Source: Clostridia bacterium (GTDB lineage: Bacteria > Bacillota > DAOUPZ01). From it: a DNA stretch of 44,626 nucleotides. A program made the translations under genes and the position numbers. The notes beneath the pieces are model-generated. The model was not told the origin of the DNA. It made no database searches and saw nothing but the letters and a program-made list of their open reading frames with translations. Positions 3,100 through 38,746 of this stretch are shown here, one piece after another. The stretch's first letter is position 1. The number at the start of each line of letters is the position of its first letter. The DNA lies in the NCBI GenBank assembly GCA_030625885.1, contig DAOUPZ010000026.1, positions 1 to 44,626 on the forward strand, given 5' to 3'.

Positions 3100-3510
3100 T
3101 TGGCTATTAAAGCGGCGAGTCCTTGTTACCCAATTGATAGCAATTATAATAACTCCTATATTTCCCAAAATATATCTCATGTTCATAATGAAATGACAGA
3201 AGATATATTGTTATCAGGTTATGCCAAATTACCTTCTAATACGACAGCGGAAGAACTTTACAAAAATTTAGTTATTGTAGTAGAAGTTAATCCGAAAACA
3301 GGGATTATTGATCGAGTAGAGTGTTCTCTGGCAACGCGTTTAGCACGGGAATTTGTTTCTAGCCTTATGGTAGATTATAATCTCGAAAAAGGAATTAATC
3401 CACTGATAAAACTTTTTGAAGAAAAGTATGTGGGTTCAGCACGTAAGGCGATTATTACAGCGCTTAAAGTGTTGAATGAACGTTATTTAGCGTATAAGAA
3501 AAGCGTATAA
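3100..3510 (+). CDS. DUF3870 family protein
   Basis: The C-terminal 105 residues (from MTEDILLSGYAKLPSNTTAE through ARKAIITALKVLNERY) match my recollection of the DUF3870 family: a GYAKLP start, a central TGIID segment and a final GSARKA-ALK-ERY helix. Function is unknown; relatives often sit beside amino-acid transport or degradation genes. The start is uncertain. TTG 3100 is directly abutted by GAGGAGGGG, which is too close; an ATT at 3106 would have ideal spacing; ATG 3193 starts at the conserved core but lacks a ribosome site. It precedes the sodium symporter, separated by a structured leader, so the two need not share a transcript. Confidence 0.75.
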   Translation: MAIKAASPCYPIDSNYNNSYISQNISHVHNEMTEDILLSGYAKLPSNTTAEELYKNLVIVVEVNPKTGIIDRVECSLATRLAREFVSSLMVDYNLEKGINPLIKLFEEKYVGSARKAIITALKVLNERYLAYKKSV

Positions 3511-3820: not shown

Positions 3821-5224
3821 ATGTCAATGCAACTGATTATTATTATGATTTATTTCGCAATTACAATTTTTATTGGTGTTCAAGCTGGTAAAAAAGCAAC
3901 GGGTGCTGCGGCATTCCACGGTTCTGGAATGGGTGTTTTTGCCTGTGTGGCTGCTGGTACTGGTGAATGGTTGGGTGGTACTTCGACCATTGGTGTTTCT
4001 TCTTATGGGTATGATTTTGGTTTGTCTGGTGCATGGTATACGTTGGCTAACGGAATTGGTGTTATCTTTTTGGCACTTTTATTTGCTAAATTGTATCGTA
4101 GTTTGGATACAGTTACCGTTCCTGGTATTATTGAGAAATTTATTGGGGTTAAACCCCGTGTAGTTTCTTCCGTTATCTTGACGTTTGTTATGGTTGCCGT
4201 TGGGGGTGCTCAAGTTATTGCTGCGGGCTCTCTTGGCGTTACCGTTATGGGGCTGCCTTATACAACCTCAATTATTGTTTTAGGTATTGGTTTTATTGTT
4301 TATACATTGGCAGGTGGTATGGCAGCTGTTGCTAATACGAATAAGATGCATCTAATTGCCATGTATGGCGGTATGATTTTAGCCATTATGATTGTTAAAA
4401 ATCAAGTTGGCGGGATGGATGCTTTAAGAACTGCACTGCCGGGTGTACCTTACTTTAGTTGGTTTGGTATTGGTATGACGAAAGTGTCTTCTTGGATTGT
4501 GGCTTCTATTTTAGGTGCATGTACGGCTCAAGCCGGTATTCAACCGCTCTTGGCTGCGAAGGATGAAAATACAGCTAAAAAAGCTGCTATTGTAACCGCG
4601 TTTGTTGTAGCACCTTTTGGTGTATTAACAGCGATATTAGGGATGTATGCGCAGGTAGCATTCCCGGGTCTTGAAAGTGGGAAATTAGCATTGCCTACAT
4701 TGATGATGAACATCAATCCAGTGGCAAGCGGGATTGTTTTGGCTTCTATTTTAGCCGCTATTTTATCCACGATGGCACCTATTATTTTGGCTTCCGGAAC
4801 CATGATGACCAACGATATTTATCATCGCATCATGCGTCCTAATGCTACCGATTCTGAAGTGTTGAAAATGTCTCGTATGACTACAGCAGTTGCCGGACTT
4901 ATTTGTATCGGAATTGCCATGATTCCTAATCTAAAAATTCTTGACCTTGTTTATTTTGCATATACCTTACGGGGCTCTTTATTTGTGGTTCTTTTGTTAG
5001 CGATTTATTGGAAGAAAGTATCCCAAAAAGGTGCTGTTTGGGCGATGGTGGTTACAGCAGCTGTTGGTTTTATTTGGGTACTTTACAAAGGGAAAATGGG
5101 GCATTATCCTATTCATCCAGCATTTAGTGAAACTTATGCAGCGGTTGTTGTTGCTTTCATTACGACCTTATTGTTTAGCAGTATTTTCCCAAAAGATAAA
5201 GAAGAAAAGTCACTTAATATGTAG
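3821..5224 (+). CDS. Sodium:solute symporter (SSS/SLC5 family)
   Basis: A 467-residue integral membrane protein with about 13 helices. The segment AGTGEWLGGTSTIGVSSYGY in the second helix, and the later ILSTMAPIILASGTMMTNDIY, correspond to SSS signatures; the Ser-Thr pair of the latter sits where the conserved sodium-2 site lies in the family. It should import an organic solute with sodium; the substrate cannot be assigned. Start follows GGGGAGGG with an 11-base spacing and begins MSMQLIIIMIYFA, which leads straight into helix 1. It has a structured upstream leader and a clean terminator. Confidence 0.92.
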   Translation: MSMQLIIIMIYFAITIFIGVQAGKKATGAAAFHGSGMGVFACVAAGTGEWLGGTSTIGVSSYGYDFGLSGAWYTLANGIGVIFLALLFAKLYRSLDTVTVPGIIEKFIGVKPRVVSSVILTFVMVAVGGAQVIAAGSLGVTVMGLPYTTSIIVLGIGFIVYTLAGGMAAVANTNKMHLIAMYGGMILAIMIVKNQVGGMDALRTALPGVPYFSWFGIGMTKVSSWIVASILGACTAQAGIQPLLAAKDENTAKKAAIVTAFVVAPFGVLTAILGMYAQVAFPGLESGKLALPTLMMNINPVASGIVLASILAAILSTMAPIILASGTMMTNDIYHRIMRPNATDSEVLKMSRMTTAVAGLICIGIAMIPNLKILDLVYFAYTLRGSLFVVLLLAIYWKKVSQKGAVWAMVVTAAVGFIWVLYKGKMGHYPIHPAFSETYAAVVVAFITTLLFSSIFPKDKEEKSLNM

Positions 5225-5721: not shown

Positions 5722-6189
5722 ATGAAAAAAGCAAATTATAATAAAAAAACAATTTTGTTACCAAGCGAATTGTCAATAGGAAGAGCTGCAATGTTATTGG
5801 CTATAACACCAACGCGGGAAGAAGAAGAAGATATTAAAAGAGTGGTTCATTCTTATTCGGGAAATTATAAATGTGCCATTACAGAAGTAAGCGGTAAGAT
5901 TTCTGATTATGAGGAAAAGGTAACTCATGCGGTTTTAGGTGCTTCTCTAAACTGTGAAGTTATAAAAAAAGAGACCCAACAAATTCATGCGTTGTTACAT
6001 GCCACAATGGAAGCATCTGAAGGGATGGCAATAGGTGCCCCTATGAGTGCGAATTTGGTTATTAAGATTGGGATTGTATCCAGTGAGACATGGATAGCAG
6101 TGGCTATGTTTGGTCAATTTGCTTATCATTCATTAGCGACCCATGAAAGAGCGGGGCTAGGGATCATGCATCTTGAACGAGGGTATTGA
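5722..6189 (+). CDS. HutP-family RNA-binding antiterminator
   Basis: This 155-residue protein aligns by eye with Bacillus subtilis HutP: the N-terminal IGRAAMLLAI corresponds to HutP IGRLSVLLLL, HALLHATMEA (89-98) to HALYHATMEA, DWIAV/TWIAV in the middle, and the C-terminal GLGIMHL to GVGINHI. The metal-binding histidines of HutP are preserved as His89, His93 and His150, and Glu97 is kept. In B. subtilis, histidine- and magnesium-bound HutP hexamers bind NAG triplets in the hut leader RNA and prevent termination. No hut genes are visible here; instead an amino-acid permease follows after a 708-base leader containing NAG arrays and two terminators. Whether this protein responds to histidine is not known. 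No clear ribosome site (GTGAATAG precedes ATG). Confidence 0.85.
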   Translation: MKKANYNKKTILLPSELSIGRAAMLLAITPTREEEEDIKRVVHSYSGNYKCAITEVSGKISDYEEKVTHAVLGASLNCEVIKKETQQIHALLHATMEASEGMAIGAPMSANLVIKIGIVSSETWIAVAMFGQFAYHSLATHERAGLGIMHLERGY

Positions 6190-6210
6190 AAAATATAGTG
6201 ACAAAAAGAC

Positions 6211-6239
6211 TTGAAGAAAAATTTTTCGTATGATATAAT
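6211..6239 (+). promoter_or_regulatory. Sigma-A promoter of permease-2 leader
   Basis: TTGAAG (6211-6216), 17-base spacer, TATAAT (6234-6239). Expected start near 6246, just before the first NAG-rich array, so the leader can be transcribed independently of the hutP-like gene. Confidence 0.7.
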
Positions 6240-6288
6240 AAATTAAACAGGACGAGTTTATGTGGTTAGAAGGCTAAGAGAAGCTTTC

Positions 6289-6312
6289 GAGAGAATAATA
6301 GAATGAGAGAAA
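6289..6312 (+). repeat. Period-8 NAG repeat array 1
   Basis: Three consecutive octamers, GAGAGAAT, AATAGAAT and GAGAGAAA, place GAG, TAG and GAG triplets at 6291, 6299 and 6307, exactly 8 bases apart. Further NAG triplets lie upstream (TAG 6267, AAG 6276, GAG 6278). The array runs directly into the 5' arm of the following terminator. Confidence 0.7.
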
Positions 6313-6369
6313 AGCCATTTTATACAGGGTGTGTTCGTAGTGCCTTGTAAAGAATGGTTTTTATTTTTT
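6310..6369 (+). terminator. Leader terminator (attenuator) 1
   Basis: A long stem pairs 6310-6329 (AAAAGCCATTTTATACAGGG) with 6343-6362 at 19 of 20 positions including G-U pairs, loop of 13, followed by TTATTTTTT. It lies about 65 bases after the promoter at 6211-6239 and more than 500 bases before the permease start, so it would attenuate permease transcription unless overcome. Confidence 0.85.
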
Positions 6370-6419
6370 CATTCAAAAATGCTTTAAAATATTGAAAACC
6401 GGAGTAAAATTTGGGGATC

Positions 6420-6467
6420 AATATGTATCAATATGGAAAAAATGATAAGAAAATATGTATCAATATG
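6420..6467. repeat. Direct repeat, possible operator
   Basis: AATATGTATCAATATG occurs exactly twice, at 6420-6435 and 6452-6467, with 32-base periodicity (about three helical turns). Each copy contains the ATATG motif twice at 10-base spacing. The phasing fits a DNA-binding regulator reading one face of the helix, upstream of the second repeat-array/terminator unit. Confidence 0.5.
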
Positions 6468-6614
6468 AAAATATTTTAAAAATGTGTTTCAGAATGAATA
6501 ATTGGGGTAAGTAATTCATATACTTAAATATACAAAAAATACAATTTAATAAAGTTCCAATATGGCTAAGAAGTATTGAGGAGAAGTGAGCGTTAACAGT
6601 AATTGAGCGCTTCT

Positions 6615-6638
6615 GAGAGGATCAGAGAATAAGAGAAT
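6615..6638 (+). repeat. Period-8 NAG repeat array 2
   Basis: Three octamers GAGAGGAT, CAGAGAAT and AAGAGAAT put GAG triplets at 6617, 6625 and 6633, again exactly 8 apart. The array abuts the 5' arm of the second terminator, the same arrangement as array 1, 326 bases upstream. Confidence 0.7.
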
Positions 6639-6730
6639 GCCAATCTGGATTTGAGAAAAGTAATGGCGGGGAAATACGCGTGTGTATTTCTAGTCTATTT
6701 TTCGATATGCAATCCATGATGGCTTTTTTT
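6639..6730 (+). terminator. Leader terminator (attenuator) 2
   Basis: GCCA (6639-6642) and TGGATT (6646-6651) pair with AATCCA (6711-6716) and TGGC (6720-6723) around a 3-by-3 internal loop, followed by TTTTTTT. A perfect internal hairpin GAAATAC/GTATTTC occupies 6671-6690. The GCCA...TGGC base followed by T run resembles terminator 1. Confidence 0.7.
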
Positions 6731-6772
6731 GTTCTCTTTTTTTATACTCTAACTTATATAATCTGAAAGGAG

Positions 6773-6850
6773 GTGAATAAGAGCAGTAAACAAATAATCA
6801 AAGGGCTGATTTTTGTTGCAAGTGTATTTTATTATTTTTTTAATTTATAA
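6773..6850 (+). CDS. Possible 25-residue leader/membrane peptide
   Basis: A short frame with GTG start encodes MNKSSKQIIKGLIFVASVFYYFFNL, a basic head followed by one hydrophobic segment. A near-perfect anti-16S sequence AAAGGAGGTGA (6766-6776) overlaps the GTG, which is too close for normal initiation, so the start is doubtful. It lies after terminator 2 and 47 bases before the permease. It could be a translated leader, or the Shine-Dalgarno sequence could have another role. Confidence 0.25.
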   Translation: MNKSSKQIIKGLIFVASVFYYFFNL

Positions 6851-6897
6851 CTTTAGGACTTATTATTTTAAAATTTGAGAATCGGGGGGAACATAAT

Positions 6898-8352
6898 ATG
6901 AGTGAAGTTCAATTAGAAAGACAAGAATTGAAAAAGGCGATGGGGCTGTTTGATTTCTTTACGCTTGGTTTTGGTGCGATGGTTGGTGTTGGCTGGGTTG
7001 TTACGGTAGGGAGCTGGATTGCCAATGCGGGTGGCCCGATAGGTGCTATTATTGCTTTTACAATCGGGGGACTGATGTTGTTACCGATTACGTATGCTTA
7101 TGGTGAAATGACAGCATCTATGCCGGTTGCCGGTGGCGAGATCGCGTATGCTTATCGTGCATTTGGATCTACGGCTTCGTTCTATACAGGTTGGGTTTTA
7201 TGTTTTGGTTATGCATTCCTGTGTCCTTGGGAATGTGTTGCCATTGGCCGTTTAGTGGGTAGTTTGATACCTGCTATGAAGGTGATGCCAATTTATGAAG
7301 TAATGGGCTTTACGGTTTATCTACCCCTTCTTATTTTAGATCTAGTGGTTGCAGGTGCAATTATCTGGATGAATGTTTTAGGTGTTGATAAAGTTGCGAA
7401 ATTTCAAAGCGGTATGACAAACTTCCTATTGGTTTGTTCAGCTATTTTTATCATTACTGGTTTTATCAAAGGAAACATAGGCAATGCTCAACCGTTTATT
7501 GGTCATTCCTTAAAAGGGTTTAGTACATTTGGTGGTATTGTGGCTGTGTTAGCCATTACACCGTTCTTCTTCGCTGGATTTGATACCATTCCGCAGGGGG
7601 CTGAAGAAGCTGGGGAAGGAATGGATTACAATAGTTTGGGGAAAGTATTGAGTTTAGCAGTTGGTGCAGGTGTTATCTTTTATGCATTAGCCATTATGTC
7701 TGTGTCCATGGTTATGCCTTGGAAGGAACTGGTTAACTTGGATTTCCCAGCTGCAGATGCGATGATGACAGTAGCACCGATGATTGGTCGTCTCGTTCTG
7801 ATAGGTGCATTATGTGGGCTTTTGACAACATTCAATGCGTTCTTTGTTGCTTCTACTCGGGTATTATTTGGAATGGGTCGTGCGCGTCTTTTACCGGAAT
7901 GGTTTGGTAAAATTGATGATAAATATCAAACACCTACTAATGCTAATATTTTCGTAGGGGCTTTAACCGTCGTAGCACCATTTATTGGTACAGCTATTTT
8001 ACTTCCCATTGTTGATGTAGGGTCGTTATGCTTTATGTTAGCGTGGTTATTGGTTTCTGCTTCTGCTGTTTCAATGCGTAAAAACAAGCCAAATATGAAG
8101 AGACCGTATCAAATGCCAGGCGGGATTACAACAGGTTATGTTGCAGTTTTAATGGCGATTATATTTACGTTAGTATTAGTCCTTCCAGGTAGTCCTGGTG
8201 CATTGGTTTGGCCTTTAGAATGGATTGTATTTGGCGCTTGGTTGATTTTAGGTATTGTCTTCTATTACTTGGCTAAACCAGGCCGTGATTCTATTACAGA
8301 AAAAGAACGTGAATATTTAATCTTTGGTGATTGGGCAATGGAAGAAGAATAA
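6898..8352 (+). CDS. APC-family amino-acid permease (paralogue 2)
   Basis: A 484-residue polytopic carrier with GFGAMVGVGW (24-33) in helix 1 and about 12 helices. It is closely similar to the 481-residue permease at 1171-2616 across the whole length, down to the tail YLIFGDWAMEEE. The start has GGGGGG upstream with 8-base spacing. Unlike its paralogue it has a 650-base leader with two NAG-array/terminator units, immediately downstream of a HutP homologue, so transcript elongation control in response to an amino acid (histidine in the B. subtilis system) is the natural hypothesis. The substrate itself is not deducible from sequence. Confidence 0.92.
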   Translation: MSEVQLERQELKKAMGLFDFFTLGFGAMVGVGWVVTVGSWIANAGGPIGAIIAFTIGGLMLLPITYAYGEMTASMPVAGGEIAYAYRAFGSTASFYTGWVLCFGYAFLCPWECVAIGRLVGSLIPAMKVMPIYEVMGFTVYLPLLILDLVVAGAIIWMNVLGVDKVAKFQSGMTNFLLVCSAIFIITGFIKGNIGNAQPFIGHSLKGFSTFGGIVAVLAITPFFFAGFDTIPQGAEEAGEGMDYNSLGKVLSLAVGAGVIFYALAIMSVSMVMPWKELVNLDFPAADAMMTVAPMIGRLVLIGALCGLLTTFNAFFVASTRVLFGMGRARLLPEWFGKIDDKYQTPTNANIFVGALTVVAPFIGTAILLPIVDVGSLCFMLAWLLVSASAVSMRKNKPNMKRPYQMPGGITTGYVAVLMAIIFTLVLVLPGSPGALVWPLEWIVFGAWLILGIVFYYLAKPGRDSITEKEREYLIFGDWAMEEE

Positions 8353-23654: not shown

Positions 23655-23770
23655 CATTTACGAGGGAAAGTGTGCCTAGGGTTCCGCTCTTATATAGAGG
23701 ACTGGTCCAAGTGGTACAGGTATTGATTTTCAATATCACACCGAAGGGATAAAAGCCCGGACGGGTAGGT
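23655..23770 (+). ncRNA. ykkC-class riboswitch (subtype 2, PRPP or ppGpp type)
   Basis: The conserved ykkC blocks appear in order: CTAGGGTTCCGC (23676-23687), GACTGGTCC (23700-23708), CACACCGAAGGGATAAAAGC (23737-23756) and GGACGGGTAGG (23759-23769). P1 pairs GTGTG 23670-23674 with CACAC 23737-23741. The final GGACGGGTAGG, as I recall it, fits subtype 2 rather than the guanidine-I ending CCGGGAGA. Upstream of formate-tetrahydrofolate ligase, which supplies one-carbon units to purine synthesis, PRPP is the likelier ligand, but subtype 2a (ppGpp) cannot be excluded. Confidence 0.8.
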
Positions 23771-37114: not shown

Positions 37115-37198
37115 TCATGAAAATCTTCTTGTTTATATATAAAAAATATGTTAATATTTCTTTATAATATATAGTAATGTACAATATTTAGGAATAGT

Positions 37199-38746
<1,548 letters not shown>

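Follow-up and report, generated by a model that had tools for sequence, protein, structure and literature searches.

Does a HutP homologue control an amino-acid permease through the leader that separates their genes, and is histidine then still the signal? The question is raised by a stretch of 44,626 nucleotides from a Clostridia bacterium, hereafter the window, in which the gene of a HutP-like protein is followed by a 0.7-kb gap and then by the gene of an APC-family permease (Table 1). The gap holds a promoter-like site and two candidate attenuators. Work on HutP has dealt almost exclusively with its role as a histidine switch in Bacillus. An earlier note on this DNA read the locus as a HutP-controlled permease, in which the logic of the B. 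subtilis hut operon is kept and only the target has changed, from histidine degradation to uptake.

Table 1. Positions of the features of the hutP-permease locus in the window.
Feature	Position	Strand	Remarks
HutP-like protein, 155 aa	5722..6189	+	PF09021, PDB sequence and fold matches, H89/H93/H141; predicted ligand- and metal-dependent RNA-binding antiterminator
Candidate promoter TTGAAG-17-TATAAT, TG before -10	6211..6239	+	consensus match only
Array 1, three 8-nt repeats GAGAGAAT / AATAGAAT / GAGAGAAA	6289..6312	+	NAG at 6291, 6299, 6307
Attenuator 1, terminator-like hairpin	6301..6374	+	z -7.4; last array 1 NAGs within its base; U tract 6357-6368
Two 20-nt direct repeats AATATGTATCAATATG(G/A)AAA	6420..6471	+	32 nt apart, between the attenuators
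Array 2, three 8-nt repeats GAGAGGAT / CAGAGAAT / AAGAGAAT	6615..6638	+	more NAGs upstream from 6568
Attenuator 2, long hairpin 6639-6723, then U tract	6639..6730	+	z -3.6
APC-family amino-acid permease, 484 aa	6898..8352	+	proposed target

The HutP-like protein

The gene upstream of the gap encodes a member of the HutP family with the HutP fold, as the earlier note had recognised. The protein matches PF09021 over the entire profile (1-128 of 128) with 121.7 bits against a gathering cut-off of 25 (E 2.9e-35), and a phmmer comparison with the B. subtilis HutP chains 1vea and 1wmq gave a weak match (E about 6e-6). An AlphaFold2 model, for which 22 sequences of the subfamily were used (pLDDT 89.5, pTM 0.85), was searched against the PDB with Foldseek, and the only entries with E < 0.001 were those of HutP, the best being 4ok9 (E 2e-9, TM 0.73). 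The protein belongs to a divergent subfamily of HutP, in whose tree it stands apart, with at most 51% identity to any other member.

Residues H89, H93 and H141 align with H73, H77 and H138 of B. subtilis HutP, which we take from the structural work on HutP to be its metal ligands, and each is at least 90% conserved across the subfamily. The metal site had previously been assigned to histidines 89, 93 and 150. The first two can be retained, but H150, although conserved, was rejected as the third ligand because it aligns with B. subtilis H147, which is not known to be a metal ligand, and the equivalent of H138 is H141.

The genome encodes a second HutP-like protein (L029, 3081-3545 in G000:C20), with a counterpart in another genome (L027, 8303-8722 in G003). 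Both genes are located directly upstream of a chorismate-mutase (aroH-like) gene and neither protein has the HxxxH metal motif. They are another branch of the HutP family, without the metal site, and L029 was for these reasons left out of the comparison. Upstream of hutP in the window there is also a DUF3870 gene (3100-3510), and in Anaerospora hongkongensis (L093) a DUF3870 gene is found downstream of hutP and a CoA-transferase gene, hinting at a shared pathway.

The ligand

The earlier note implied a histidine signal. This would correspond to an ordinary HutP that senses histidine and was transferred to the control of a histidine permease, keeping its ligand and acquiring a new target, and both the retained metal-site histidines and the gene order, which matches that of B. 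subtilis hut, agree with such an origin. Histidine sensing is nevertheless unsupported, since the protein reaches only 42.8 bits against NCBIfam NF002838, the equivalog of hut-type HutP with a curated cut-off of 155, the segment R88-G89-E90 of B. subtilis HutP, which we take to lie near the ligand, is replaced by I104-G105-A106, and no histidase gene (hutH, PF00221) was found in the genome. Furthermore, the relatives of the protein serve malonate and nitrogen operons. A transplanted histidine switch is accordingly improbable in our view.

No hut genes were seen among the neighbouring genes examined at the locus. The segment after HxxxH varies across the subfamily, and R88-G89-E90 is partly kept in the HutP of a true hut operon (L028). 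Residues K115 and R143, which are conserved in all or nearly all subfamily members, are not the same in B. subtilis HutP. Histidine is probably not the ligand. The simplest reading, we infer, is that the ligand has changed, and that the metal holds perhaps a carboxylate or the substrate of the permease itself; the likely inducer is this substrate, or else an amino acid or carboxylate related to it.

The leader between hutP and the permease gene

The earlier note placed a promoter directly after hutP. A consensus-like site is present there and is the joint best of 14 in a 5-kb scan, but the scan as a whole gave no excess over shuffles, and the site is for this reason regarded as a candidate only. 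The terminators described earlier were recovered as two hairpins with U tracts, and arrays 1 and 2 abut or overlap these strong hairpins. Directly 3' of array 1 lies AGCCATT, and directly 3' of array 2 lies GCCAATC. Upon folding, the last repeats of the arrays form part of the stem base of the terminator and pair with the U tract (for attenuator 2 in a longer fold), and thus lie at the site where bound protein would prevent closure of the stem. Three regularly spaced NAGs beside or within the 5' arm of a terminator, between hutP and its target, are what we use to define a leader of the HutP type, and they were found at two sites, with a period of 8 nt.

The NAG arrays reported earlier are real. 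The AG density of array 1 is higher than that of all 141 control terminators, and the density of the segment over array 2 is reached by about 3.5% of these. A 23-nt motif of three repeats (at most 3 mismatches) has two copies in the 44.6-kb window, both in this gap, against 0.04 expected, and three copies in the 3.1-Mb genome, the two best being arrays 1 and 2; as the motif was derived from the same two sites, these counts demonstrate repetition and locality and are no independent discovery. With the AG count held fixed, the 8-nt spacing of AGs within the window alone was not significant, and the case for the arrays consequently rests on comparison with relatives. A shuffle of AG distances, which is biased because shuffling makes new AGs, was taken as no more than an indication of the 8-nt peak.

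The exact 15-nt core of the direct repeats between the attenuators occurs at this site only in the genome, and the repeats are possibly an operator. Rfam recognised no family in the leader of the window or in the leaders of seven relatives. Elsewhere in the window, it identified a guanidine-I riboswitch (23665-23765) and a T-box leader (37181-37409).

Subfamily members and their target genes

Relatives were collected by searching 398 genomes of the phylum with a profile, together with genomes of named species (75 loci). A single-sequence scan of genome contigs confirmed no relatives; an alignment query found them. The subfamily is present in Phascolarctobacterium, Sporomusa malonica, Anaerospora, Desulfosporosinus, Thermosediminibacter, a Synergistales genome, Rubneribacter and Adlercreutzia, and in genomes that were judged to be heliobacteria from their gene content.

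The genes found directly downstream of hutP on the same strand encode malonate decarboxylase (equivalogs of mdcA and of the beta and gamma subunits) or belong to nitrogen metabolism (nifI/nifH/nifD, amt). In other loci hutP is directly followed by a CaiB-type CoA-transferase, with or without the malonate transporter MadL/MadM, by a carboxyl transferase together with OAD-beta, or by an ABC transporter, an M20 peptidase or an SSF transporter. These targets do not support the earlier suggestion that the hut operon and the locus of the window differ only by a change of target from histidine degradation to uptake. The nif and amt members form, with a few neighbours of other label, one clade of the protein tree (100/98), and the target labels change 21 times on the tree versus 48 times under shuffling.

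In two genomes (G088 and G324) the HutP-like gene is located directly before nifI1. The nif-linked regulator orf1 of Heliobacterium (Enkh-Amgalan 2006), which is cited in PMC7143216, may be the nif-linked member of this subfamily, with a target operon that differs from that of the window. In the genome of the window no convincing candidate for a nitrogenase iron protein was found, the matches to the NifH family being weak only. One further genome (G027) encodes three subfamily members (L022, L023 and L026) without an obvious downstream array and target of the usual form.

The downstream APC permease is present as the earlier note had it. It is one of four close paralogues in the genome, 66-92% identical, the others being located at 1171-2616, in G000:C3 and in G000:C37. 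NAG arrays are found upstream of the hutP-linked permease only; the three other paralogues have neither arrays nor a hutP neighbour. A search of HutP homologues in related genomes, which the earlier note had called for, showed that NAG arrays and terminators recur beside hutP, but the pairing of HutP with this permease was seen in this genome only among the loci examined, none of the 40 relative genomes compared being closer than the same phylum.

Leaders across the subfamily

The order of hutP, NAG array, terminator and target recurs throughout the subfamily, which makes HutP control of the permease leader, with the logic of the gene order kept, the best reading of the locus, as was proposed earlier. 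A terminator was found in 47 of 56 hutP-to-target gaps versus 81 of 249 control gaps between same-strand genes (p 1.3e-12), and a terminator with an adjoining AGN6AGN6AG triple (NAG-N5-NAG-N5-NAG) in 25 of 56 versus 3 of 249 (p 4e-18), p-values that overstate independence since many of the loci are Desulfosporosinus nif. When periods of 5-14 were scanned for triples near the terminator, period 8 occurred in 32 of 81 loci and each other period in 0-8. After the relatives had been collapsed at 70% identity the peak at period 8 was modest (11 of 37 clusters), followed by period 13 (8 clusters), a value that agrees with the pattern TAGTGG..GAGAGAG in leaders from Phascolarctobacterium.

Almost no variation is seen in three AGs spaced exactly 8 nt apart in 20 nif/amt leaders, in which there is also covariation in the terminator and in a hairpin further upstream (6 pairs changed on both sides), so that a constraint on the NAG sequence and a constraint on terminator pairing are both visible. 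Long arrays, exemplified by GAGTGATTT repeated seven times or TTAAGAGTTGAAAG, were seen in Desulfosporosinus-like genomes (L156 about 4316-4400, L107 about 6505-6600, L024 about 7260-7450), either 5' of the hairpins in the nif leaders or in the interval from nifI2 to nifH. These could be extra HutP sites.

The arrays of the window might still be incidental, array 1 being the A/G-rich arm of a terminator that belongs to hutP itself, and array 2 part of an unrelated permease attenuator, with HutP acting in trans elsewhere. Terminators are common after genes, as the control gaps illustrate, and a 5' arm may be rich in AG because it pairs with a CU-rich 3' arm, such as the U tracts here, an alternative origin that counts against a HutP module. 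However, the combination of a terminator with an 8-nt triple is rare in the same controls, none of the control terminators equals array 1 in AG density, and the genome holds no better copy of the motif elsewhere. We therefore consider incidental arrays an unlikely explanation.

Proposed mechanism and comparison with known systems

The reading that we prefer, and regard as quite probable, is a self-contained antitermination module of the HutP type, activated by ligand and metal, whose site of action is one or both terminators of the permease leader. The permease mRNA would start at the candidate promoter just 3' of hutP, or result from readthrough from hutP, and by default transcription would end at one or both of the leader terminators. 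In the presence of a small-molecule ligand and a divalent metal, we infer, the HutP-like protein, presumably acting as a hexamer by analogy, would bind three NAG triplets with 8-nt spacing per site. The bound protein would block the 5' base of each terminator hairpin, giving readthrough and production of the permease. Counting against such a module are the link to the permease in one genome only, the modest peak at period 8 after collapse, the non-significant spacing in the window alone and the lack of excess in the promoter scan.

TRAP reads approximately 11 GAG/UAG triplets, 2-3 nt apart and overlapping leader hairpins, and causes termination. The module proposed here is similar in that a protein would read triplet arrays overlapping leader hairpins, but the proteins are unrelated, and TRAP uses more triplets, at a shorter spacing, and acts by termination rather than readthrough. 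That another regulator, for instance a TRAP-like protein, reads the NAG arrays, or that the HutP-like protein promotes termination, is very improbable: TRAP likewise reads GAG/UAG arrays and the direction of regulation is not readable from sequence, but instead of up to 11 triplets 2-3 nt apart the leader has irregular NAGs and triples at a period of 8 nt, and such arrays recur beside hutP-like genes.

In the B. subtilis hut leader the NAG period is 7, compared with 8 in the window. The antitermination module of the window further differs from hut in its target, a permease, in the absence of R88 and E90, with a ligand that is probably not histidine, and in having a candidate promoter after hutP and two attenuators, each with a NAG triple of its own. 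The two systems share the HutP fold, the HxxxH motif with a third histidine, and the order of hutP, NAG array, terminator and target; the hut attenuator contains clusters of three NAG (PMC7430163). Within the open literature that was searched, HutP is described in a hut context only.

Most likely, the locus represents a HutP-type module that responds to a different ligand and, in this case, has a permease as its target. For the family as a whole, we lean slightly towards the view that HutP-derived, metal-dependent RNA-binding antiterminators are a plug-in switch that has been disseminated among anaerobic Bacillota and also into some Eggerthellaceae, responding to new ligands other than histidine (malonate-like carboxylates, a nitrogen-status metabolite, an amino acid), with control over malonate decarboxylase, CoA-transferase and malonate uptake, over nif and ammonium uptake and, in the window, over the import of amino acids. 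If this is true, the HutP fold would be a general switch at the RNA level with a re-tuned ligand pocket. It would also provide a testable candidate for the control of nif in heliobacteria and Desulfosporosinus, and for the control of malonate fermentation in Phascolarctobacterium and Sporomusa.
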